In this document: piece after piece, positions 1-35,600 of the stretch | How positions within the stretch are numbered: position 1 is the first letter of the stretch | How the letters are laid out: each line of letters starts with the position of its first letter | Assembly (NCBI GenBank): GCA_009602725.1 | Contig: WELB01000123.1 | Span: 211,393-251,154, forward strand | Length of the DNA stretch: 39,762 nucleotides | Direction of reading: 5' to 3' | Origin: Spirogloea muscicola | Lineage: Eukaryota; Streptophyta; Zygnematophyceae; Spirogloeales; Spirogloeaceae | Notes under the pieces: generated by a model | Told to the model about the DNA's origin: nothing | Databases searched by the model: none | The model's input: only the letters and a program-made list of their open reading frames with translations | Translations under genes and position numbers: made by a program

Positions 1-5923
<5,923 letters not shown>

Positions 5924-9144: not shown

Positions 9145-9660
9145 TGAGCTGCCTGTGAGCCGCTTGCACCACTATCAACTCTCTGCCATGCAACTGCGCC
9201 TTCCCACCCCTTTACACTGTACACGGTTTTTTGGTTTGTTTATTTTACCCCAGCACACTGTGCTTCTTGGCTTCAAAGAGAGAAGGCGCGCGAAGTGCAT
9301 GTAATGAAAAAGGGAGGCCAATGCAAGACCAAACATTGTCCAGGCAGAAGCTAGAGCAAATGAAACACAACAACAAGGCTACAGAATATGGAGACCTAAA
9401 CTAAGGTGCCTAAGGTAAACGAGATATTACCCAGCAGTGGAAGTATGTGCATCATGTCGTGCCTGCCTGTATAGCGCTCACAATACGTCGAAGTGCCACA
9501 CCTGAAGCCCCGCCTACAGGCCAGGACTCTGCTTGGCTAGCAGCAGCCTGCCCTGCATGGCCTCACTACCAGATGAGCAGGCCTGCGACGAATGTGGCAG
9601 AAGAGTCACCACCCCCCCACAATATACGAGCATCNCACCCCCCCCCAGCTGCCTGGACCC
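9145..9660. other. No gene seen; candidate polypurine tract and LTR zone of the gypsy fragment
   Basis: No coding pattern is visible. A C-rich run at about 9636-9650 (G-rich on the minus strand, interrupted by the N at 9635) lies about 60 bases downstream of the pol stop of the minus-strand gypsy fragment and could be its polypurine tract. An LTR would then lie at lower coordinates, but I find no matching second copy in the window. Confidence 0.35.
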
Positions 9661-9707: not shown

Positions 9708-12297
9708 CTATGCGCAGCGCGGACAGAACCACTGCCCGGCCGGCACCTCAGCAAACAGTCAGTGTGCCACCCTGCGTTGCAGCGGTCGCATAGCAGCATG
9801 GTCGGCTCAAGCCGCCACACACTTTACACCTCATCCCCTCCATCGTCCACGCCAAGGTGTAGTCGATTGTGCAGTCCAGGTCAGGAAGATGGCACGGCGC
9901 ACAGTTGCGCTGGTGCTCTGCGACAGTGGATCCGCACCGGCCCTGCAGCAGCAGCACGCCGCTGGGCCTCACCTCCTTCACTTGCAGGACGACCCGCCGG
10001 ACACCCACGTCCAAGGTGATGCGCTGCTGGCGCTGCACATAGACGTAGTCGCCCCTCTCAAACTTCATCACCCGTGGCTGGTACTTGCCCGACCGCACCT
10101 GCGCGTAGCGCAGCTTGTCGCGATGCTGCGCCACTGCCAAGTTGCCCATCGCCATTGGCATGACCCTGCAGAAGAGCCTCCCGCGCTCCTTGCAGATCGC
10201 CACCCAGCGCCCTGGGCTGTTCATGTCCACCACTGGCTCCACCGCGGTCGGATGGCAGCTGGCAGCAGAGGATGCCTGCCAAAGAGCAAGAAGTACAGCT
10301 CGCCAACGCCGCCTGCTTACTCATGCGGTACCCCATCAGCAACCAGGGGAGATCCCAATCCGTGGTGTCCCTCTCCAGGCAGAACTTTCGCAGTCCCCTC
10401 TTCACTGTCAGAACCATCCACTCCGCCAGCCCGTCTGCCTGCGGGTTGTTGCGCGAGGTCGTCCTGTGGTCGATCAAGGCCTCCTCCAACCCAACGTCGA
10501 AGGCGCCGCGGAACTCGGTACAGCCATCAGTGAGCACCTCAGCGCAGGCCCCAAAGCGGCACAACACCCGATCCAGGAAGCAAGCTGCGATCAACGAGCT
10601 GGACTTGTCCGGGATGGAAACCACTTCTACCCACTTGCTTGCATGCTCCACCATAATCAAGATGTAGCGCAGCCCACGCTTCGAAAGTGGCAGCTTGCCT
10701 GCAAGATCAAGACTCCACCTGTAGAAGAGTCCGTTGATGGGGAGTGGATGCAGCTGCACGCTGCGCACCGTGAGGTTGGCACGGACGCGGTCACAGGCCT
10801 GGCACCGCGCCACCACTGCAGCCACATCCCTGGCCATCCCCTTCCACCAGTGACCACACGCCACCAGGCTTTGGGTCCTCTTCACCCCAAAGTGCCCAAG
10901 CAGCTCATGCTTGCTGCAGCACCAACAGCGTCCGCTCCGCCGGCCTGGGCACCACTCTCTCCCCACCATCCTTCTTCAACCGCAGAAGGTGGCACCTCGC
11001 GCCACCGGTACCGTTGCGCCCGCTGCTGCACACGGTCCTTGCTCGCCTTGCTCCTCCCCAACTGATGTTCAGGCCGTTGGAGGTACTCCAGCACCTCCAG
11101 GTCGCTCCACACGTCCGGATCACCCCCAGCCGCCTGCTGGGAGGTCTTCCCTGGCACGAGCCTCGGAGCGGTATATGTGGTCAATCTGCCTCCTGCCACG
11201 GCCCCGTCCTCACGTACAACATCGCTAGTGGCAAAGCCTAGCAGCTGCGGCATGGCTCCACGGCGACAGTACCACCTGGAGGTCTCTTCCATAACGGCGG
11301 CCAGGCTATTTGCTACCCCAGCGTTCTTCAATCACCGGCTCCCGCTCCACGCTCCCGTCACTCCCGACGCTCTTACTCCAGCCGCGCCGCCGCTCATTCG
11401 AGACGCCACGGTGGTCGGACTGTGCCGCCAGGCCGGAGATGACTTCAAACCGCATTGCACCGTTCCAACATCACATGCATGCGCCCCAGCGCCGGCAGAA
11501 GGAGTGGAATCGACCTGCATGGGCCCCTTTCGGAAGCCCCTGAATTCTCGCTGCAGGCGGTCGGAGCGTCCGCCCCCCGCGCGGCCTTCGGTCGTGTCAA
11601 GCAGCTGCAGCAGCATCGCTGAAGCCGACCACGCGGGCAGCTCCACCTCCGCACTGTCGTAGTCCGCCCGTGCCTCACTCCTGTCTTGAGTGCTCGGGTT
11701 AGGGTTGCGGCTGAGGCCGTCCGCGTCCAAGTGTGCCTCCCCCGCACAATGGCAGATCTCGAAGTTGTACTCCTGCAGGATATGCGCCCATCTTGCGTGC
11801 TTGCCGGTAAGCTTCTGGTTCGTCATATGCCCATTTCAACGGCTGATGATCGGTGACCAGCACGAATGTTCGGCAAGACAAGTATGGACGGAAGTGCACC
11901 ACCGCCCACACAACGCAAAGGCACTCGCCCTCATGAGAGCTGTAATTAGCCTCCGCGGCGTTGTTGGAACGGCTCGCATACGCTACTACATATTCCTGTC
12001 CCTCCTTCTCCTCCTGCACCATAACTGCTCCAAGCCCCAGACGGCTCCAATCTGTATGTAAGTGGAAAGGCTTGAAGTAGTCCGGCCGCCTCAGCACCGG
12101 CGCAGAAGACAGGCGCTCCTTCACCTCCTCGAACGCCTGCTGCCGCGGCGCTGTCCGCACCCACAGCTCCCCCTTCTTCAGCAGCTCGTTCAGCGGCTTC
12201 ACGACAGCGGAGAAGCCCTTCACAAATTGCCGATAATAGCATGCCAGGCCCAGGAAGGCCCGCAGCCTGCTGATGTCCGTAGGCACTGGCACGCGCT
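9708..12297 (-). pseudogene. Gypsy pol fragment: RT end, RNase H, integrase, PHD finger
   Basis: Read from 12297 downward: RT connection (ISRLRAFLGLACYYRQFVKG), then RNase H with HTDWS (about 12055), SSHEGE and TDHQPLKWAY (about 11850), a linker, the integrase zinc-binding region HELLGHFGVKRT ... CQAC (about 10910-10800), and the integrase core with DLAGKLPL, EVLTDGCTEF and the late Glu in GLAEWMVLTVKRGL. A basic GPY-like region follows, then a PHD-type finger at 9828-9708 (CKVCG, LLCDRCNAGWHTDCLL, QWFCPRCA, stop TAG at 9710-9708). At least four frame changes break the reading frame, near 11827, 11330, 10960 and 10240, and another lies inside the finger. The RT side ends abruptly at about 12297 in an inverted junction with gag sequence. 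Confidence 0.85.
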
Positions 12298-12481: not shown

Positions 12482-12561
12482 AAGCGGCTGCTGATATGAA
12501 AGAATCGGCTGTGAAATGCCAGCCAGATGCATACAGGTGTTCATGACGGAGCCAAAGGCTA
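12482..12561 (-). mobile_element. Approximately 80-base dispersed element, copy 1 (introner/MITE-like)
   Basis: The element runs from AAGCGGCTGCTGATATGAAA to GAGCCAAAGGCTA. It is flanked by an exact 8-base duplication GAGAGGGC at 12474-12481 and 12562-12569. The related sequence at about 18285-18310 has a single CAGAGGGC at the same place and no element, so it serves as an empty site. On the minus strand the element contains GTCATG and GTATGC donor-like sites and ends a pyrimidine-rich stretch with TATCAG, like a small intron. Related copies lie at 14238 and 34391. Confidence 0.85.
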
Positions 12562-12562
12562 G

Positions 12563-12855
12563 AGAGGGCGCAGATCGCTTGGCGGGTAGGGAGCACGGCC
12601 GCCGGGAGGAGCAGGGCGCGCGGTACCCCTTGTCGTTTGCGCGCTTGACGGAGGTGGCTGCAGACGGGCCAGCGGCGGTCGGAGAGGGCGCGGCGCAAGT
12701 CTCTGCGTGGCAGCTATCGGCCGCACTCATGAGCACGCCCTTGCTGTCGTTGGCAAGCGTGGGCTGCTCTCAGTTGGCGCTGAGGAGGGCGCTGCAGCAG
12801 CACCTGCCGGGTCTGCTGGAGGGCGATGTGGCGGGGTCGAGCGAATCAGCCAAGG
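12563..12855 (+). repeat. Direct repeat copy A, segment upstream of gypsy protease
   Basis: This segment matches 18297-18590 in the same orientation with only scattered differences. Both read LSFARLTEVAADGPAAVG and ALQQHLPGLLEGD. I do not recognise a domain. By position it belongs between gag and protease of the same retroelement family. Confidence 0.75.
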
Positions 12856-12856
12856 C

Positions 12857-13050
12857 CGCGCGGGGGGGGGACACCCCGACCGCCTGCAGTGACAAATCAG
12901 GGGCTTCCGAAAGGGTCGATTCAACTCCTGCAGGTCGATTCAACTCCTTCTGCCTGCGCCGGCACCCGCGGGCGAGTGCTTGGTGGCCGTGGAGCGGCCA
13001 CCAAGCACTCGTGCCGTTGGGGCCCATGCAGGGGAGAGCCCGTCGCTTCC
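12857..13050 (+). repeat. Linker repeat, copy in front of the protease
   Basis: This linker resembles 15167-15350, which lies between methyltransferase and RT. Both start with a G run and GACACCCCGACCGCCTGCAG, continue through GGGGCTTCCGAAAGGG and a CGATTCAACTC block, and end with the coding match PSTRAV ... SPSL. The first 100 bases also occur at about 11590-11495 (-), 17220-17115 (-) and 18590-18670 (+). The copies therefore mark several domain borders of the polyprotein. Confidence 0.7.
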
Positions 13051-15110
13051 TAAGCGGCGGGTGGCGGAACGAGTGGGGATCACCCCCAACGTGGCGCAGA
13101 TGGTACAACAAGACGGCTTTGCAAAAGTCAACGGCAAAGCTCCTGCCCGTGTCATGCTGGACACGGGTGCGCAGCCGGTGCTGCTTGGCCGCAGCATGGT
13201 GCCGCTGCTGGGGCTGCGTCCACAGGACCTGCAGCCGTCACCGGTGGCCATCAAGACGGCGACGGGCGGCGTCACGACGGGGCTGCGGCAGACACGCGAG
13301 CCTATTTGCATCACCCTCAACCAGGGCGGCGCAGACGAGGTCAGCAGGCGCCTCCACTGCTCGGTAATGGAGGCCACAACATACGACGTGCTGTTGGGCA
13401 TGGAGTTCTTGTACCCATGTGGGGTGAGTGTAGACCTGTGGGAGGAAGTGGGGAGTTACCGGCCCAGGTACGCATGTGGAGAGGGACGCAAGGTAGGGTT
13501 CCCACTGCAGCTGGTTGCCGCAGTGGAGGAAGGGGCCGCATTCGCGTGCCACGGGGAGGGTGCGTGGGTGGGCAGCGACCTGCTGTCCATGCCGCCGGAG
13601 GAGGAGGCCTCCACGCCACTGGCGGCAGTACGCTCAGGAGTGGCTTCTGCAGGCCACGGGGCCGCTGCGCATGCGGTGCAGGTGGAAGAGCTGGTGGATC
13701 GCGTATGGAAGCAGCTGTTACTGGTGGCGCAGGAGCTGCCAGCGTGTCTGCCGGCAGTTGTGCAGCAGCATGGAGAGCCGTTGGTAGACAGCACAACTAT
13801 TGAGTGGACGATCCTGCACGGCGGGGTTGTCCTTGTGGAGCTCTTTGGCGGCATCACCACCGGGCTGGCGGCGGTGCTGGCCAACGGTGTGCGGGTCTGA
13901 CGGTACATGTACGTCGACCCGGATCCAGTGGCGCAGGCCACAGCAGCACATCACATTCGGCGGCTGATGGACGAGTACCCGGAGCTGCTGACCCCGGAGG
14001 CCATCAAGGGGTACCTCACCACCCTGCCGGCTGACATCCAGCTAGTGGGCCACATCATCTCAGGGGGTTGGGACAGGTGGATCTGGTGATTGCAGGTTTA
14101 GGAAGTGCCAAGGCCATTCCAGCGCTGGTGCAGGTCGGGGGTTAGCTGACGCCCGCTCACGGCTCTGTTGGGAGCTGGAGTGTGTTTTGGCACTGCTGCA
14201 GGGGGGGGCAGGAGGCCCCCCTAGCATATGTGTTAGAAAGCGGCTGCTGATATGAAAGAATCGGCTGTGAAATGCCAGCCAGATGCATACAGGTGTTCAT
14301 GACGGAGCCAAAGGCTAGGCAGACAGGGCGCCCTCAATACCCCCGTGTCAGCAGTAGGAAGTCAGATGAGCTGAGGGGAGGAAGAGCAACCCCGCTGCGC
14401 AAGCCAGAGGCTGCTGCAAGGGCGCGACCAGCGCGGCGGTGCAAAGCAAGCGCTTGGGAGCGCTGCAGGGACATACGTGTTGGAGACTGTGCCGGCAGGC
14501 GACGACCGCCGCGAGAATGTGCGGCGTGACTTCCAGGTGGTGGAGAGCCGAATTGGGCGCGGCGTGCCTCTGGACGCAGCTGCTCTGGGCAGCCGCGCGC
14601 ACCGGTTGCGAATGAAGTGGACCAACCTGGCTCAGCCAGAATTTATGGCCGCTGCAGTCGCGTTAGTCAAGCGCCCAGCCGGGCTGTTAGTGGCAGACAT
14701 ATTGAACCCGGGGAGGGTGCCTCAGCCAGTGAAGCGGGACGACAATTCCTCCGCACGCGCTGTGCAACAAGGTGGGACAGCCAAGGGCGGCGTTGCCCAC
14801 GCTGGTGAGCTACCCGGCATCTTACGCGTTCAGGAATGGAGGCCAGGGTATGGTGTGGGACAACACCATGTAGCGCCTGGAGGAGCCCCGTGCCGAAGAG
14901 CGGGAGCGGGCGTTGGGCTTCCAGACCGGCACAACAGCGGCTCCTGGGCTCACTGAGCGGCAGCGTCGGAAGCTGTTGGGGCAGGCTATGGATCTGAGGG
15001 CTCTCGCGTGGGTGCTGTCGGTAGGCTTTGCCGCGCAGCCGAGCCAGCAGGCAGAGTGGCAGCTGGCGCAGGGGCTCTCCATACAGTGGGCGGCGCACGC
15101 AGGCGCTGGC
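12980..15110 (+). pseudogene. Gypsy retropepsin fused to a DNA (cytosine-5) methyltransferase domain
   Basis: A retropepsin comes first: ARVMLDTGAQPVLLG (about 13145-13190) and YDVLLGMEF (about 13383). A methyltransferase domain follows: VLVELFGGITTGLAAVL (motif I, about 13830), YVDPDPVA (motif II, about 13910), VDLVIAG followed one frame later by CQGHSSAGAGRGLADARS (motif IV zone with the catalytic Cys, about 14085-14155), YVLETVPAGD (motif VI zone, about 14473), VGS-type GSRAHRLRMKWTNL (motif VIII zone, about 14588) and LTERQRRKLLGQAMDL (late motifs, about 14950). Damage: in-frame TGA at 13898-13900, frame changes near 14045 and 14095, an insertion at 14238-14470, further breaks at 14720-14880. 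The motif IV Pro is not preserved (KCQG). The copy cannot be active. Known: a few gypsy and copia elements carry such domains. Confidence 0.8.
14238..14470 (-). mobile_element. Approximately 233-base insertion in the methyltransferase, starting with element copy 2
   Basis: The coding sequence stops after GCATATGTGTTAGA and resumes at ACATACGTGTTGGA, an imperfect 11-13 base duplication encoding YVLE twice. The first 80 bases (14238-14317) match the dispersed element at 12482. The remaining 150 bases resemble repeats at about 24020-24150, 25540-25680 and 39640-39762, sharing pieces such as CAATACCC, a GTCAG block and repeated CGCG/GCAGC-rich stretches. This may be a longer form of the element, or two nested insertions. 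Confidence 0.6.
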
Positions 15111-15453
15111 GGCTTTCCACTGGGGGGGGGAATAGAGCCGCAGCTTGAACAGGTGGCACCCAAGTCCGCGCGGGGGGCGGACACCCCGACCGCCTGCAGC
15201 GAGAATTCAGGGGCTTCCGAAAGGGGCCCCTGCAGGTCGATTCAACTCTTTCTGCCTGTGCCGGTATCCTTGGGTGAGGCATCGGAGTTTGTGGAGCAGC
15301 TACCAAGCACTCGTGCCGTAGTGGTCGTTCCTGCAGGGAGGAGCCCGTCGCTATACGGGGCCCAGCAGCAGGAGGCTGGGGGGGGGGCCCGCATAGCAAC
15401 CACAGCAGGAGAAGTGGGGAGCAGGGAAGGAGAAGCTGCTCCACGAGAGGGAT

Positions 15454-16095
15454 GTGGGCGAGGAGTTGTCCAACGAGGAGCGAAAGCAGTTTATGGAGCT
15501 GCTGGAGAGGCACCGGCAGACGTTTGCCTTCTCCATGGCGGAGCTTGGCACCTGCCAGTTAGGGGAAATGACAATTGCGCTGACTACGGCAGAGCCGGTG
15601 TACTGGCGGAGGCATCGGCTCAGCCCGGTGGAGTGGGCGCTGGTGCAGGCGCGCTGTGAGGAGCTAATGCAGGTGGGGCTCATCGAGGAGTCGGATTCTC
15701 AATATGGGGCGCCAACGGTGATGCCGGTGAAAAGGACCTTTTTGGCCGGTGGACGGAGAGGAGGATGTGCGGGGACTACCGCGCCCTGAATGAGGTGACT
15801 CAGCCCGATCGCTATCCCATGCCCACCCCAGAGGAGATATTTGATGAGCTGGGTGCAGCGTGCGTCTTCAGCGTTTTGGACCTGCGCCCGGGATCAATAA
15901 GATTGGGATCAAGATGGAGAACAGGCCAAAGACAGCCTTCTGGAGAGCGGAGCGGCTCTACCATTGGACACGCATGCCATCTGGGTTGCGCAACGCCCCG
16001 GCCAGGTTTCAACGGGTGATGGATCAGGTCTTGGCGGGGTTGCACTTCGCCAGATGCTACATTGACGACGTGTTGGTGTTTTAGCACAATGGTGT
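15454..16095 (+). pseudogene. Gypsy reverse transcriptase fragment, plus-strand copy
   Basis: The RT starts with EELSNEERKQFMELLERHRQ, continues MCGDYRALNEVTQPDRYPMP (about 15763), LDLRPG, RLYHWTRMPSGLRNAPARFQ and ends CYIDDVLVF (about 16060). It has a frame change near 15740, a deletion in the LDLRQGF motif near 15890, and a TAG right after DVLVF at 16083. It lies about 350 bases after the methyltransferase end in the same orientation, placing the methyltransferase between protease and RT. The sequence turns round into the inverted copy at about 16095. Confidence 0.85.
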
Positions 16096-17745
16096 CCGTA
16101 GGCCCTGGCACGCGCATTAACGCGTCCACCTTCGTCTGCTGCACGTCCAACCCTCCTGGTGTCACCTTATGTCCCAAATACAATGCCGTGCCCACCCCGA
16201 ACCGGCACTTGCCGGGGTGACACTTATTCCGGATGTCCCAATCCTCCCCAGCACTGCCTCCACGTGCGCCACGTGCTCTGCCACCGTTGTGCTAAACACC
16301 AACACGTCGTCAATGCAGCATCTGGCGAAGCGCAACCCCGCCAAGACCTGATCCATCACCCGTTGAAACCTGGCCGGGGCGTTGCGCAACCCAAATGGCA
16401 TGCGTGTCCAATGGTAGAGCCGCTCCGCTCTCCAGAGGGCTGTCTTTGGCCTGTTCTCCATCTTGATCCCAATCTGATTGAATCCCTGGCGCAGGTCCAA
16501 GATGCTGAAGACGCACGCTGCACCTAGCTCATCAAATATCTCCTCTGGGGTGGGCATGGGATAGCGATTGGGCTGAGTCACCTCATTCAGGGCGCGGTAG
16601 TCCCCGCACATCCTCTTCTCCGTCCACTGGCCAAAAAGGTCCTTCTTCGCCGGCATCACCATCGGCGCCGCGTATTGGAACTCCGACTCCTCGATGAGCC
16701 CCACCTGCATTAGCTCCTCACAGCGCGCCTGCACCAGCGCCCACTCCACCTGGCTGAGCCGATGCCTCCGCCAGTACACCGGCTCTGCCGTAGTCAGCGC
16801 AATTGTCATTTCCCCTAACTGGCAGGTGCCAAGCTCCGCCATGGAGAAGGCAAACGTCTGCCGGTGCCTCTCCAGCAGCTCCATAAACTGCTTTCGCTCC
16901 TCGTTGGACAACTCCTCGCCCACATCCCTCTCGTGGAGCAGCTTCTCCTTCCCTGCTCCCAATTTCTCCTGCTGTGGTTGCTATGCGGGCCCCCCCCCCA
17001 GCCTCCTGCTGCTGGGCCCCGTATAGCGACGGGCTCCTCCCTGCAGGAACGACCACTACGGCACGAGTGCTTGGTAGCTGCTCCACAAACTCCGATCCCT
17101 CACCCAAGGATACCGGCACAGGCAGAAAGAGTTGAATCGACCTGCAGGGGCCCCTTTCGGAAGCCCCTGAATTCTCGCTGCAGGCGGTCGGGGTGTCCGC
17201 CCCCCGCGCGGACTTGGGTGCCACCTGTTCAAGCTGCGGCTCTATTCCCCCCCCCAGTGGAAAGCCGCCAGCGCCTGCGTGCGCCGCCCACTGTATGGAG
17301 AGCCCCTGCGCCAGCTGCCACTCTGCCTGCTGGCTCGGCTGCGCGGCAAAGCCTACCGACAGCACCCACGTGAGAGCCCTCAGATCCATAGCCTGCCCCA
17401 ACAACTTCCGACGCTGCCGCTCAGTGAGCCCAAGAGCCGCTGTTGTGCCGGTCTGGAAGCCCAACGCCCGCTCCCGCTCTTCGGCACGGGGCTCCTCCAG
17501 GCGCTGCGTGGTGTTGTCCCACACCATACCCTGGCCTCCATTCCTGGACGCGTAAGACGCCGGGTAGCTCACCAGCGTGGGCAACGCCGCCCTTGGCTGT
17601 CCCACCTTGTTGCACAGCGCGTACGGAGGAATTGTCGTCCCGCTTCACTCCCCGGGTCCAATATGTCTGCCACTAACAGCCCGGCTGGGCGCTTGACTAA
17701 CGCGACCGCAGTGGCCACTAACTCTGGCTGAGCCAGTTTGGTCCA
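16090..17745 (-). pseudogene. Gypsy methyltransferase C-terminus and nearly intact RT, minus-strand copy
   Basis: Read from 17745 downward: TKLAQPELVATAVALVKRPA, ERERALGFQTGTTAA, LTERQRRKLLGQAMDL, then the recurring linker (about 17220-17115) and an RT open over about 266 residues (16962-16162). RT motifs are MCGDYRALNEVTQPNRYPMP, LDLRQGFNQIGI, GLRNAPARFQRVMDQ and CIDDVLVFS, where the usual YIDD Tyr is Cys. A long frame (17605-16718) covers the methyltransferase end and linker. It lacks everything before motif VIII. A further stretch to 16090 gives the RT thumb (GHKVTPGGLDV) after a frame change. Confidence 0.85.
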
Positions 17746-18160
17746 CTTCGGGGTGGGCACGGCATCGTACTTGGGACATGAGGTGACACCAGGAGGGTTG
17801 GGCGTGCAGCGGGCGAAGGTGGACGCGTTGATGCGCGTGCCAGTGCCTACGGACATCAGCAGGCTGCGGGCCTTCCTGGGCCTGGCAAACTATTATCGGC
17901 AATTTGTGAAGGGCTTCGCCGCAGCTCGGTCAGGGCTTCACAACAGCCCTTCACAGATTGCCAAAAATAGCTTGCCAGGCCCAGGAAGGCCCGCAGCCTG
18001 CTGATGTCCGTAGGCACTGGCACCCGCATCAACGCGTCCACCTTCGCCCGCTGCACGCCCAGGAGTGTTTTCCCCAACCCTCCTGGTGTCACCTCATGTC
18101 CCAAATACGATGCCGTGCCCACCCCGAACCGGCACTTGCCGGGGTGACACTTCATTCCGG
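17740..18160. repeat. Small inverted repeat of RT thumb sequence
   Basis: At 17740-17935 (+) the sequence reads FGVGTASYLGHEVTPGGLGV and AFLGLANYYRQFVKGF. At about 18150-17950 (-) the same stretch recurs in opposite orientation, with a 12-base insertion coding GKTL near 18060. The centre is near 17940. The minus copy continues to about 18270 with YIDDVLVFSTTV. The whole forms a hairpin with arms of nearly 200 bases. Confidence 0.8.
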
Positions 18161-18296: not shown

Positions 18297-18590
18297 GAGG
18301 GCGCAGATCACTTGGCGGGTAGGGAGCATGGCCGCCGGGAAGAGCAGGGCGCGCGGTACCCCTTGTCGTTTGCGCGCCTGACGGAGGTGGCTGCAGACGG
18401 GCCAGCAGCGGTCGGATAGGGCGCGGTGCAAGTCTCTGCGCGGCAGCTAGCGGCCGCACTCATGAGCACGCCCTTGCTGTCGTTGGCAAGCGTGGGCTGC
18501 TCTGAGTTGGCGCTGAGGAAGGCGCTGCAGCAGCACCTGCCGGGTCTGCTGGAGGGCGACATGGCGGGGTCGAGCGAATCACCCAAAGCC
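18297..18590 (+). repeat. Direct repeat copy B; carries the empty site for the 80-base element
   Basis: This matches 12563-12855 in the same orientation. At its left edge (about 18285-18310) the sequence runs uninterrupted through the point where copy A is split by the 80-base element, so it is the natural unoccupied site for comparison. A TAG at about 18418 breaks the frame. Confidence 0.75.
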
Positions 18591-18670
18591 AGGGGGGGGG
18601 GCGGACACCCCGACCGCCTACAGTGACAATTCAGGGGCTTCCGAAAGGGGCCCCTGCAGGTCGATTCTGC
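18590..18670 (+). repeat. Recurring linker module inside the gag/pre-protease junction
   Basis: This copy of the roughly 100-base linker has a G run, CGGACACCCCGACCGCCTAC, GGGGCTTCCGAAAGGGGCCC and TGCAGGTCGATTC. At its right end it joins gag sequence in the opposite orientation. The module contains an imperfect inverted repeat, CGACC..CTGCAG against CTGCAGGTCG, at its two ends. Confidence 0.65.
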
Positions 18671-20060
18671 CCCTTCTGCTCGGCCTGCGCTGCCGTGGCG
18701 GTGGCTGCCATTGTAGCTTGCATCTGCGCGACCTGCTCCTTGAGCAGCTCCAGTTCGGTGGACGAGCTGGCCTGTGCAACGGCTGACGATGCGGCTGCGC
18801 TCCTGGCCGCCCGGGACACTGCGTGAGCCTGCCGCTGCGCCGGCCGCTGCTCTGGATGCAGCGTCCAACAGGTATCCGCCCCGTGACCTGCCTTACCGCA
18901 ATGGGTGCACCGCATGCCAGCCCCCCTTGGGCAATCCCTCTTGGTATGCCCGGGCTGGTTGCACGTGTAGCAGAGACCGGCCCCAGCCGGCCCAGCTGGT
19001 ACTACCGACGCCGCCGCCATGCCCTGCTTGCTGGGCACCCGCCACTGTCTCGGCTGAGTCCTGAACCACAGCCGCAGCTGAGCAGCCGGCCTCCCTTCGC
19101 TCTTGACTGAAGCCGCCACCTCCACCGCCTTCCCTGCGAAGTGGCGCTCGACGTCATGGCGAGATCCGCCACCTGGTCGATGGTGAAGGTATGGTGGTAG
19201 GCTGCGAAGACCTGTTGCTCAAGCCAAGCCCCATTTTTGCCTCCTCCAAGGGCCTCTAGGAACTTGTGAGCCGCATCGATCTCTGTCAGCCTGCCTGTGT
19301 CTCGGCGCAGCTGCTTGAGGCGCTGTGCCATGACCATGACGTCCTCGCCTGGCAGGCACTGGAAATTAGCCAGCTCCGCCACCTTGGCCGCGGAGTCTGT
19401 CTTGAATTGAAGGCTGAGCAGATGCAGGAAGTGCTGGTGAGTCTGCCAGTAAACGCTCCCGCTGGGCCGGCGTCCCCGCCCCCAGGGCCCCCTCCGCCAC
19501 CACCGACAGACCCGCAATGAGCTCCTCTGCTGCAGCACCATAATCCTCATCGCTGGCTAGCCTCCCGCCAGCCGGCACCTCCTCCTTGGCGGCCAGAATC
19601 TCCTTCATGACCGACCGGTAGTACCATAGCGCGGGCCCGTCCAAGAAATTCCGGCAGTCTTGAAACCCACCCACCGCGTGAAGCGGTGGTTGAGTTCCAT
19701 CCTTGCCATAGTCGCTTCGACCTTCATCTCCAGTCCCAAGAGCGAGATCCCATCCGCCCTCCCAGTGTACTTCCTCCCCGGTCTCGCGGCCGTCTCCTCC
19801 ATGCTGTCGTTGGACGGTGCGCTGCCCTCGTTGTCGCTGGCCGCAGCACCGTCGTCCGACAACTCCGGCGGCAGATCTGCCTCGTCCCGCTGCCAATCTG
19901 CAGGCGGTAGCGAGTAGTGCGCGCCGCTCCTGTTGGGCATCCAGATCCCAACCCCGGTGGCCCGATGCGCCGCTCCCGCTGCCGCCGCGTCGCTCGCCCT
20001 CCACAGATCTAGATATAGATCTGGAGCTGGATCTCGATCTCGATCTCGATGTCTCCGCAA
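18670..20060 (-). pseudogene. Gypsy gag with two CCHC zinc knuckles
   Basis: Read from 20060 downward: an Arg/Asp-rich start, an acidic region (LPPELSDDGAA), a gag-like helical region FLDGPALWYYRSV (about 19650) and FKTDSAAKVAELANFQCLPG (about 19400), ALGGGKNGAWLEQQVF, then two zinc knuckles CYTCNQPGHTKRDC and CTHCGKAGHGADTC (about 18970-18860) and a coiled coil EQVAQMQATMAATATAAQ. FLDGPALWYY and FKTDSAAKVAELANF resemble retrotransposon gag. The frame changes about three times. The predicted role is coat and RNA binding. Its pol continuation is not adjacent. Confidence 0.85.
20005..20052. repeat. GATCT-rich simple repeat
   Basis: This is a short degenerate run of AGATCT/GATCTC units, ending in three tandem TCGATC units. 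On the minus strand it encodes the Arg-Asp run at the start of the gag frame. Confidence 0.8.
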
Positions 20061-21275
20061 GTAGATACTCGCACCTCGCCTCTCTCTCGCTTACGTCGTC
20101 ACCCCCGCCGGGGGATCTCTCGCCGCTTCGGCCCCCTGACCAACCTGGCCCGGAGCTTCAACCTGCGGCGCGCCAAACCCTGCCAACCCTTGCCGGCGGC
20201 TGCGGCGGCGCGCTAGGTTCTTTCTCCACTGAGGGACTTGCGGAGAGATGGCCTCTTTCCGCCGTCCGATCTGTTAAGACCCCACCCTGCGACTCAAGCT
20301 CCCTCAGACCTTGTCCATTCTTTTGGGCTGGCCTTTCCCAGCCACCAGTCAATCTGGCCGCGCTTTCTCGCGAAGGGGGGTCAAGGCAGTAGGTATAGGG
20401 ACTTCATACTCGGCGCCCCGGGGCTCTCCAGCCCGCCCATACGGGTTGCGCCCTACTCAGCGAGTCACCCCATAGGTTACCCCCGCTGAGGTTCCCTGAA
20501 CCACCTTCCTACCTGAGATATCTAACCAGGGTTAGCCCTGGTCAGTTTCGCCCAACCACCCTCTAGCCGACGCTACAACGACGCTCTGCGCCCGGGCATG
20601 ACATTCACTCCCCACCACAAGGATGCCCTGGAGCGCACTAGTAGCATGAAGGCAGCCACCTGACCGGCATCGAAAAGGCAAGTGCTACGCCTCATCGACA
20701 TACTTGATCTCCAACTCTCCTTCTATGATGATGCACACTTGCTTCGTGTGAAGATTAACAACTCATCTTCACAAGCTCTCACCTTTTGGCGCTTTTTGGC
20801 CCCCTTCGAACCTTGTCTTGTTTTTTAGAGCTGGCTTCTCACAGCCTTTGCCACTACTGAAGAGCCACTTCTTCTCACCTACTCGCCCTGTTACACACGG
20901 CCAATTTTGCAACCTTGCATACAAGTGCAGGCAATCCAGGCTTGGCCAACCATAGCACTACTGCAAGTAGCGCATTAGTCAAACACATACTAGCACGGCT
21001 TTGGTTGCTCAATCATGGGAATCTCCACACGGGCTAATGTCAGAGTTTTGAAAACCTCAACAAGGAAGTCATTTGTTATCAGAAGATCCCAGCCAGATCT
21101 GGTAAGCCTAACGAAAACGGGAACGGTGGATCCCTTTATCACTGCACAATACATGAAAGACATGTCGGACCACCACTTTGTGTATTTGTCAAATCCATGG
21201 CCGAAGAGCTTTACAGAGCCCTCCAGCTTTAATATCCTGTGCTGATGAAGTAGCTCCTACTGAAGGTCTGGGCTT
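20061..21275. other. No gene seen; retroelement flank plus hairpin-repeat relatives
   Basis: 20061-20650 lies directly upstream of the minus-strand gag and is where its 5' leader and LTR would be; I see no matching LTR partner. 20310-20370 carries a variant of the hairpin repeat (TTGGGCTGGCC, then CCCAGCCACCAGTCAATC and TGGCCGCGCTT), which returns at about 24195-24245. A weaker variant is at about 20820-20860. A short perfect hairpin ACCAGGG-TTAG-CCCTGGT lies at about 20525-20542. The rest is featureless. Confidence 0.5.
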
Positions 21276-34029: not shown

Positions 34030-35600
34030 TGAGAGCTTGGTGGTTGCGGTGAGGGGGGAGGCGAAGGCGGGGGTGGCGGGTAGGCTGGAATTCCACCTAG
34101 TTGCACCAACCCACCTATAGCTGGCACAACGGCTGCGCCAACACGGCCAGGTTTGACAATTTCAAAGAGCAAGTACTGCCCTGGCGGGGCGATGTTGCAG
34201 TTGGGCGGGAGGGAGACTGTTGTTGAGAATCTGCCTTTGCTGTTGGCGAAGAACTTGGTGAACTGCTCTTTGACTATGCGCTGGCTCATAGTGAGGCCAT
34301 GAGTGCTCCGCCGGGGTCGATCAGCATAACAGAGACGGCCTCTGCAGCCGCCGCGGAGAACGTGATGGGGACGTTTTGGGAGTAGAGGAGAAGCGGCTGC
34401 TGATATTAAAAAATCGGCTGTACACTGCCAGCCAGATGCATACAGGTGTTCATGACGGAGCCAAAGGAGTAGAGGAGGGAAGTAGGCAAGGACGGGGAGA
34501 TGATGGGCGGTGCAATCAGCTGGTACTGTGGCGAGAAGGCCTCCACAGACAGTTGCATGGCCCCCGAGTACTTGGCTGGCGCGGGGAACGTGTGGGGCTT
34601 CCTCCTGCCAGGATGTCCCTGCCGTCATGGGCGAGAGTGGCAGACGCCTGGAACGGCCTGGCGATGGTGGACGGTGACAAGACGTCGAACTTCGCTGCCG
34701 AGCCGGGCGACACGGCTGCATTGAGAAGGTATGAGTTTGATGCTGGCGTGCCAGCGGTACTATAATCTGCGGCCGGCATCAATGTGCACAAGCGTCTTGC
34801 ATACAGCAAGCAGATGTGGGTCTGGCTGCCAAAGACGAATACCACTAGCTTACAGCCTCGCAAGTTGCATTGAATGACTTATTGAAGTATGCAGCACACT
34901 TCTCAATGGAGTCAACGCTGATCCCTCTTCACACCTGCATAGCCCGAGCTGGCACCGCTTATGAAGAGCACCTTTCCGACGGAAAGCAGGATTGTGTTGA
35001 ACATAGTGCGAGGCTCCAGGCATGGATTTGTACACACACAGGGCTGCCAGATGGGTCGTCAACCCTGAGGGAGCCGCAGGTCGCTGTGACAGGGTAGCCG
35101 CCACCACAGACCATCTTGGTGGTGGAGTAGTTCGTGGCGGCATTCAACGGCAGCGTGAAACTCGACGCCCTGTATGGACTGCTCTGCGACGCCGAGGTAT
35201 TGCTCAGCTGCTGCAATATCCGGACATGTCTTGACGCAGGCGCCACTACCGGCTGTGACACGCATCTCGCACGCCTGCAGAGCTTACATTGGGATGAGCC
35301 AAGCGCGACCCTGGGGTAGAATGGGTGAAGAGCAGGGACGTTGTGGCCATCCTGGTTCACTGCTAAAAAACATAGACAGCCAGGACGCACGACGCTGCCT
35401 CTGGCATTGGGAGGCCCGCCTTACCTTGGTGTTGGCGAGGATGAACATATTGCCGTTCTTGAGGAGGTGGAGGATGGTGTACAACTTGTATTCGCTAGTA
35501 CCTTGCAAGAGAGCAGTAGGGTGAACGTTGGATGCCTCCCCATGCGCATGCTCAAAGCCCAATTTACCTGCTGCAGGCTCAAACGGATCTGGAAGACATG
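34026..35600 (-). pseudogene. Degraded glyoxal-oxidase-like copy
   Basis: On the minus strand the blocks follow the order of the oxidase half of the fusion gene: YKLYTILHLLKNGNMFILAN (about 35490-35425), SSFTLPLNAATNYSTTKMVC (about 35165), EPRTMFNTILLSVGKVLFIS (about 34990), FDVLSPSTIARPFQASATLA (about 34690-34630), GAMQLSVEAFSPQYQLIAPP (about 34560), EAVSVMLIDPGG (about 34330), GQYLLFEIVKPGRVG and a Pro/Ser tail to 34026. Frame changes lie near 35040, 34605 and 34305, and no exons for the first part of the domain are found. An 80-base element splits it at 34391. It is therefore a truncated, inverted paralogue, probably a pseudogene unless the frame breaks are sequence errors. It is clearly diverged from 30.8-33.0 kb, so not a recent duplicate. 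Confidence 0.75.
34391..34467 (-). mobile_element. Approximately 80-base dispersed element, copy 3, in a coding exon
   Basis: AAGCGGCTGCTGATATTAAA to GGAGCCAAAGG is flanked by AGTAGAGGAG at 34381-34390 and 34468-34477; the match extends to 12 bases if GG is counted on the left of each. The insertion adds 87 bases. In the host frame it brings a TAA. Removing a 57-base minus-strand stretch from GTCATG to TATCAG would take out that stop and leave ten extra codons in frame, as expected of an introner. No transcript is available to test this. Confidence 0.85.

Follow-up and report, generated by a model that had tools for sequence, protein, structure and literature searches.

DNA methylation is one of the main ways in which hosts silence retrotransposons. 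Why, then, would an element keep a methyltransferase of its own? This question is raised by a stretch of 39,762 nucleotides from the streptophyte alga Spirogloea muscicola (GenBank assembly GCA_009602725.1, contig WELB01000123.1, positions 211,393 to 251,154 of the forward strand), referred to here as the window. It contains a decayed and rearranged copy of a Gypsy retrotransposon with a DNMT3-like cytosine methyltransferase (DNMT) between its protease (PR) and its reverse transcriptase (RT). Relatives in the same genome leave little doubt that this copy belongs to a Gypsy lineage in which a DNMT3-like C5 methyltransferase is stably kept as the C-terminal end of a polyprotein with Gag and protease; a stop codon of leaky type then separates it from Pol.

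Architecture and distribution of the element lineage

The better-preserved copies encode Gag, PR and DNMT, followed by a stop codon and then, in the same frame, RT, RNase H (RH), integrase (INT) and a PHD finger. At locus L040, the first frame of 1411 residues comprises Gag with a CCHC knuckle, PR and DNMT and ends in the stop, and the second frame of 1037 residues comprises RT, RNase H, integrase and the PHD finger (PF00628, E 1e-9). The same domain order is present, in larger or smaller part, at L039, L043, L044 and L047. L041 reads Gag-PR-DNMT-INT-PHD with no match to RT, and L042, L045, L046, L048 and L050 contain parts of the element. The LTR/Gypsy order PR-RT-RH-INT (LTR, long terminal repeat) was found at L040, L043 and L044, each with the DNMT between PR and RT, and protein P0002 carries the Pfam domains PF00078, PF17919, PF17917, PF17921 and PF00665. 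The whole L043 element is enclosed by an LTR-like pair of 301-bp direct repeats (767-1067 and 9263-9562), which are 98.3% identical by self-comparison. No LTR-like pair was detected at the other 10 of the 11 loci over the stretches compared, with L039, L045, L047 and L048 containing shorter or internal repeats only and the remaining loci no repeats. A DIRS-like repeat layout was found neither by repeat search (six loci) nor by self-comparison (eleven loci), and no clear target-site duplication was seen by eye in the flanks. The PHD finger is similar to those of KMT2D, CHD4, ATXR5, KAT6A, BAZ2B and UHRF1, several of which are readers of unmodified H3K4. In L040, the linker between PR and DNMT (4055-4312) is repetitive and rich in Ala and Thr.

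Counts of the lineage in the host genome (G000; 471 contigs, 153 Mb) are minimum values, because each search scored part of its first-look candidates (107 of 274 for the L042 DNMT, 110 of 300 for the L043 DNMT and 147 of 667 for the L040 RT). There are at least 109 matches to the L042 DNMT at 1e-6 and at least 113 to the L043 DNMT. A PF00145 profile search gave 78 matches at E <= 0.01, of which a few resemble host genes (on contigs C168, C234 and C256). The RT matches fall into two groups by identity to L040, one at 48-100% and one at 36-43%. Among the best candidates, 37 of the 48 RT clusters in the closer group have a DNMT match on the same strand within 3.5 kb upstream, and for none of the 87 clusters in the distant group does either strand contain one up to 6 kb away. 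The DNMT is therefore tied to one RT lineage. The stretches upstream of nine RT loci (L071-L079) contain a trace of DNMT only at L073 (contig C104), where it is weak at 45% identity. L072 has the order Gag-PR-RT with about 540 bp between PR and RT, which looks like a loss of the DNMT. Both loci are among the eleven close clusters for which no DNMT match is listed.

The stop codon between DNMT and RT

Junctions between DNMT and RT were compared in 31 sequences, comprising 20 short loci, L039, L040, L042-L046, L048, both copies in the window and L089, a locus on a contig of other source. A stop codon followed by CAA is present at 28 of them (TAG at 25, TGA at 3), as in GAA TAG CAA TTA of L040, AAG TAG CAA TTA of L044, ATG TAG CAA CCA of L042 and TAG CAA TCA of L089. 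The full CAR-YYA context follows the stop in 24 of the 28; the exceptions are L043, L069 and L070, with CGA in place of YYA, and L058, with TCG. In the alignment of these 28 rows CAA is invariant and the next three positions are T or C in 28, T or C in 25 and A in 27, while the flanking positions vary on both sides. Since many rows are close relatives, they do not represent 28 independent cases. Across the window and twelve long loci the context is rare: counting all frames and including the junctions, it follows 26 of 10,288 stops, and 5 of 461 frames of at least 100 residues end in it. RT similarity continues in the frame of the stop in 26 of the 28 rows. A DNMT tail precedes the stop in the same frame in 19 of the 28, several at E 0.002-0.006, with reference tails taken from clades A and B only.

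Readthrough at the stop of tobacco mosaic virus is described as requiring this context (UAG-CAR-YYA), and stop readthrough has been proposed for the rice gypsy element RIRE2 (PMC2754532). By this analogy, Pol is very likely expressed by readthrough at this junction, in which case most translation would yield Gag-PR-DNMT and Pol would be added by readthrough.

The methyltransferase domain

The element DNMT is closest to DNMT3 by sequence and by predicted fold, and the models suggest that it folds like DNMT3A/B. PF00145 scores above its curated cut-off of 22 in P0001, P0003-P0007 and P0009 (30.5-53.8 bits), including P0005 derived from L045 (E 3.2e-7). The ratio of nonsynonymous to synonymous substitutions (dN/dS), computed on genome matches of 60-99.5% identity, at least 80 residues and dS < 1.5, indicates purifying selection on the DNMT and suggests that it has been kept by selection; a separate dN/dS comparison excluded the stop-containing RT rows L039 and L047.

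In most copies of clades A and B, motifs IV, VI, VIII and X read GFPC[EGQ]GFS, ENV, ADRxR and GQAxD; the departures are confined to single copies at decayed loci. Clade C, to which the window copy belongs, lacks the Pro-Cys of motif IV and has WECQGHS at 7 of its 8 readable loci and WGCQGHS at one, with the Cys kept throughout. Glu at this position extends to 18 of the 42 scored retroelement DNMT rows, including those of Closterium and of a group with the DNMT between RNase H and integrase; 14 of the 56 rows were unscored, among them C_L048 (WGC). Two changes are enough to explain its distribution on the corresponding DNMT tree, in which the deep branches are open and from which P0057 and rows of 150 residues or fewer were excluded. 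We take the DNMT of the WEC clade to be a changed, presumably still maintained enzyme.

The ratio of observed to expected CpG is 0.50-0.69 in clades A and B, 0.77-0.83 in the clade of the window, and 0.70-0.80 in the window flanks and two light-harvesting complex (LHC) loci. As support for methylation of the copies, CpG decay would be weak at best. GC content also differs between the clades within this one genome, at 0.46-0.49 in clades A and B and 0.62-0.68 in the clade of the window.

The copy in the window

The original prediction, made from the letters of the window alone, described one frame running from a retropepsin into DNMT motif I, the remaining motifs in order up to an RT, and a dead copy. 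The frame is present: the plus-strand frame 12893-13900 contains a retropepsin (PF13975, E 1.3e-10) and then VELFGGITTGLAAVL, with a stop at 13898-13900. Beyond this point the DNMT continues as pieces in other frames up to 15038, after which a truncated RT follows from 15454. The motifs keep their order, as predicted, but they are not intact. Motif IV is split by a frame change that leaves KCQGHS, motif VI is altered to LETV, and both motif VIII (GSRAHRLRMKWTN) and motif X (LGQAMDLRALAW) can still be read. With its frames broken and its parts rearranged, the copy is indeed dead. Matches to the L045 DNMT (tblastn) have 85% identity at 13781-14065, 82% at 14103-14219, 94% at 14474-14743 and 92% at 14745-15038. 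A Pfam profile scan found no PF00145 in any of the five DNMT-bearing window pieces tested, so the identification of the window DNMT rests on its relatives; the domain search that had been suggested as a check thus failed on the window pieces and succeeded on relatives with intact frames. The features of the copy are as follows.

13124..13474, plus strand: retropepsin (protease), 95% identical to that of L045
13781..14065, plus strand: N-terminal part of the DNMT with motif I ELFGGITTGL and the in-frame stop at 13898-13900; match to L045
14103..14219, plus strand: DNMT segment in another frame, motif IV cut to KCQGHS; match to L045
14238..14318, plus strand: 81-bp dispersed repeat (family D4) within the DNMT domain, also at 12482-12562 and 34391-34471 by repeat comparison
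14474..14743, plus strand: DNMT segment with motif VIII; match to L045
14745..15038, plus strand: C-terminal part of the DNMT with motif X; match to L045
15394..15402, plus strand: TAG CAA CCA, a leaky-stop-type motif upstream of RT and in frame with it, but out of frame with the DNMT of this copy
15454..16111, plus strand: reverse transcriptase, truncated and in several frames, by similarity to relatives
16210..16923, minus strand: reverse transcriptase of an inverted second copy, 51% to L040
16975..16983, minus strand: TAG CAA CCA of the second copy, read from 16983 down, by junction comparison
17339..17748, minus strand: C-terminal half of the DNMT of the second copy, 88-92% to L045 (inverted repeat I1, 98%)
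18631..20157, minus strand: Gag region that includes a CCHC zinc knuckle, with a match to the L040 Gag (36%) over 18835-18990
11701..12151, minus strand: RNase H of the element, by profile and relative matches
10289..10909, minus strand: integrase of the element, 58% to L040

The DNMT end and RT form a nearly palindromic inverted duplication (14728-15743 and 16634-17649, 98% over 1016 nt with 890 nt between the arms), and Gag, RNase H and integrase all lie on the minus strand (20157-18631, 12151-11701 and 10909-10289). The protein encoded at 14874-15659, in which the DNMT end is residues 1-55, has 78 matches in the host genome, many of which span only the repeat-rich linker or the RT end.

A repeat of about 100 bp occurs in the window at 12849-12945, 15159-15255 and 18583-18679 on the plus strand and at 11486-11592 and 17113-17219 on the minus strand. 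It recurs before PR and after DNMT inside elements of the same clade; in L045 it is at 3369, 3561 and 5613 and translates in frame as KAARGADTPTACSEHSGASERGPCRSI. The 81-bp dispersed repeat is found in L045 too (6060 and 8881). Downstream of its element, L007 carries long unassigned frames on the minus strand.

The original prediction placed the host among the chlorophytes. This does not hold: a photosystem I antenna exon (L083) matches land-plant Lhca4 at 266.7 bits, and the host is a streptophyte of the Zygnematophyceae. We take the top-scoring chain, labelled Lhca4, to be from a land plant; the chains that we take to be from chlorophytes score about 160-185 bits (maximum 184.7). An LHCII exon (L081) does not discriminate: its best chain is labelled LHCI-2 (a two-domain match), followed by chains presumably from Physcomitrium (273.8 bits) and, at little distance, Chlamydomonas (254.5 bits). 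P0057, a EukProt model (SM000012S25399, SM being the prefix of Spirogloea muscicola) at s12:814352-819161 on the minus strand, coincides with host matches at C12:814443-814934, also on the minus strand. The plastid rbcL family PF00016 has no match in the host assembly, and PF12499 (DUF3707) gave no matches there or in controls. The LHC loci (68 matches in the host genome) include several in threes with identical exon cuts, as genome triplication would give (contigs C37/C98/C130, C8/C24/C229 and C28/C30/C76).

Relatives and origin of the methyltransferase

Protein searches returned one relative for P0003, 16 proteins for P0011 (itself included) and 30 proteins for P0005. The named relatives are from the liverworts Calypogeia fissa (P0036, 52% identity) and Marchantia polymorpha (MARPO_0008s0049, P0039, 49%) and from Sphagnum (P0046, 42%; P0058, 34%), together with six Closterium proteins. 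PR precedes the DNMT in all four of these bryophyte proteins. Outside the host genome, this order is present in 16 of the 30 proteins (P0030-P0039, P0045, P0046, P0049, P0054, P0058 and P0059), in P0026 and in L089. L089 is a Gypsy element on contig CADCWO010000201.1, which is filed under an uncultured Synechococcales metagenome-assembled genome and is most likely a mis-binned eukaryotic contig.

In the RT tree, which contains no bryophyte proteins as they offered no RT piece, the PR-DNMT-RT elements group together (clades A, B and C, soil, Closterium and P0040; 83/83). Elements of the RH-DNMT-INT type (100/99) are their sister, both together at 99/97. P0011-P0018 and three host Gypsy RTs without a DNMT fall apart from both groups. 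In the DNMT tree, a branch with 97/94 support separates 27 retroelement DNMTs, including P0011-P0019, from DNMT3A and four phage-type enzymes. Monophyly of the DNMTs of clades A, B and C with L089 was not recovered in the best tree and was not rejected (p-AU 0.178); in a larger tree with open deep branches, clade C groups with P0045 and not with L089. From the two placements, either related donors gave rise to the DNMT in repeated captures, or it was transferred among Gypsy lineages.

Two sources of the DNMT were considered and rejected. As to a viral origin, P0003 has no relative in viral_contigs, and a profile search there gave 54 loci with best-segment identities of 22-50%. Among the methyltransferase loci read out (L090, L093, L094, L095 and L101), all but L090 were placed in the tree and lie outside the retroelement DNMTs. 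The search for a bacterial source gave 4 loci, one of which is the Gypsy element L089. P0019 (2086 residues, ENA) has annotations for PF12237, RT, DNMT and PHD and is mobile-element-like.

Proposed function and alternatives

The best overall explanation, which we consider rather probable, combines a Gag-side DNMT, a readthrough Pol and self-methylation of the element's cDNA; the original prediction had suggested a self-methylating or anti-silencing lineage. Ribosomes would mostly stop at the UAG and release Gag-PR-DNMT, and a minority would read through UAG-CAA-YYA and add Pol. The DNMT may thus outnumber the enzymes that copy the element. With Gag-PR-DNMT as the main product, the methyltransferase would be a component at particle stoichiometry, packed with the RNA and RT; the published charophyte element, by contrast, carries its DNMT within Pol. 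After reverse transcription the DNMT would methylate the element's own cDNA, so that a new copy would enter a methylated genome already resembling host DNA. The PHD finger, which follows the integrase and is similar to readers of unmodified H3K4, may direct new insertions into quiet chromatin. Self-methylation is itself a tentative step, to which we give slightly less than even chances.

Several observations weigh against this explanation. A sense codon replaces the junction stop in L039 and L057, and no stop-CAA was found within the 800 nt examined at the L045 junction. No DNMT is listed for 11 of the 48 close RT clusters. Decayed or shorter pieces reach a dN/dS of 0.84 (L037) and 0.63 (L015) in clade A and of 1.03 (L006) in clade C. 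In the clade of the window, Glu replaces the Pro of motif IV and CpG is not depleted, and CpG transitions are enriched only 0.9-2.2 fold in eight comparisons. Finally, the Gypsy DNMT of Klebsormidium nitens showed no activity in yeast, a result that its authors called inconclusive (PMC5890265).

An alternative is that the DNMT, above all in the WEC clade, serves as an anti-silencing decoy: it would bind to DNA, to RNA or to DNMT complexes of the host, catalyse inefficiently and so weaken host silencing. The Glu at seven of the eight readable clade C loci, its recurrence in other retroelement DNMTs and the sequence constraint in the clade of the window fit such a role. Yet clades A and B mostly retain PC, ENV and the motif VIII arginines, bryophyte members retain WPC, and the motif IV Cys is invariant across a 10-row alignment, and we regard the decoy as unlikely. 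Somewhat less likely still is an enzyme acting in trans on the DNA of the host or of rival elements and shaping the host methylome, as has been speculated for Symbiodinium (PMC5890265). The roughly 100 DNMT-like places in the host genome would provide for it, but many of the listed copies are fragmentary or carry stops, and Klebsormidium has such elements and nevertheless a land-plant-like methylome (PMC5890265).

The stop could also be an ordinary terminator, with Pol made by re-initiation or from another RNA and the CAA context reflecting shared ancestry. The junction copies are related, and the CGA and TCG variants depart from the context. Against this, the context is kept while its flanks vary, among elements whose RTs range from 48 to 100% identity and in a contig of other source, which makes an ordinary terminator improbable. 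That the arrangement arose by chance insertion or as an assembly artefact, to which the rearranged, frame-broken window copy might point, can practically be dismissed: the identical order recurs at many loci and in other organisms, and the genome census refutes it. The original prediction was right that this is a Gypsy lineage with a C5 methyltransferase between PR and RT, and no lone insertion; the DNMT is not confined to the window with PR and RT adjacent elsewhere.

The conserved leaky stop would set the amount of DNMT relative to Pol, and this opens packaging and self-methylation to test. Through the relatives in the proteomes of Marchantia, Calypogeia and Sphagnum, the question can be taken up in tractable land plants. 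A broader scenario, which we offer as speculation and think more doubtful than not by a wide measure, is that of an old Gypsy lineage throughout the streptophytes (Zygnematophyceae, liverworts and mosses) in which a leaky stop sets a DNMT3-like enzyme as a Gag-side component of the particle, and whose WEC clade, with Glu for the Pro of the catalytic loop, was maintained either as an altered enzyme or as a factor that counters silencing without catalysis. Writer and decoy would then derive from one captured gene.

Comparison with known systems

Retrotransposons carrying a DNMT are known from dinoflagellates and charophytes, as the original prediction had stated (PMC5890265). The closest published system is KnitGypsy-Dnmt3 of Klebsormidium nitens (de Mendoza et al. 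2018, PMC5890265), likewise a streptophyte Gypsy element with a Dnmt3-type domain, conserved key residues and purifying selection on the DNMT. As far as its description allows comparison, it differs in having the DNMT in the Pol open reading frame (ORF) and DIRS-like repeats. In the Spirogloea elements the DNMT forms the end of the Gag-PR ORF in front of the leaky-type stop, a PHD finger terminates Pol, and L043 has a plain pair of 301-bp direct repeats (98.3%). The main text of PMC5890265 contains no occurrence of PHD, gag or readthrough. The same paper proposed cDNA methylation. The Symbiodinium elements SymbioDIRS-Dnmt3 and SymbioLINE-Dnmt also carry a DNMT, which in the DIRS element is of Dnmt3 type and CG-active in yeast; instead of Gypsy, they belong to the DIRS elements, which use a tyrosine recombinase, or to the LINEs (PMC5890265). 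DNMT3 members embedded in Copia and DIRS retrotransposons of streptophytes and dinoflagellates are described in PMC12344493, and the passages of PMC6453930 and PMC10952607 consulted make no mention of DNMT retroelements.

Among database proteins, P0020-P0025, P0043, P0052 and P0053 (RT-RH-DNMT-INT) have a sister RT (99/97), a kindred DNMT and, where the sequence reaches it, a PHD finger after INT (last in P0020-P0025 and P0053). They differ in the position of the DNMT, between RNase H and integrase, and in motif IV, which is ECQDLS or ECQDFS save in P0020 (PPCQSFS). P0011-P0018 (RT-RH-DNMT-PHD-INT, P0016 stopping after the DNMT) share a Gypsy Pol, a related DNMT and a PHD finger, but their RT groups with host Gypsy elements that have no DNMT. 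RIRE2 and TMV-type readthrough supply the gypsy readthrough proposal and the UAG-CAR-YYA context, and the passages on them in PMC2754532 mention no DNMT. In the open-licence PMC literature, as far as it was covered, we found no report of the Gag-side position of the DNMT, the leaky stop or the bryophyte members. The idea of a methyltransferase-bearing retroelement is thus already known; relative to the published charophyte element, what is new is the position of the DNMT, the proposed control of its expression, the wider host range and the motif IV variant.

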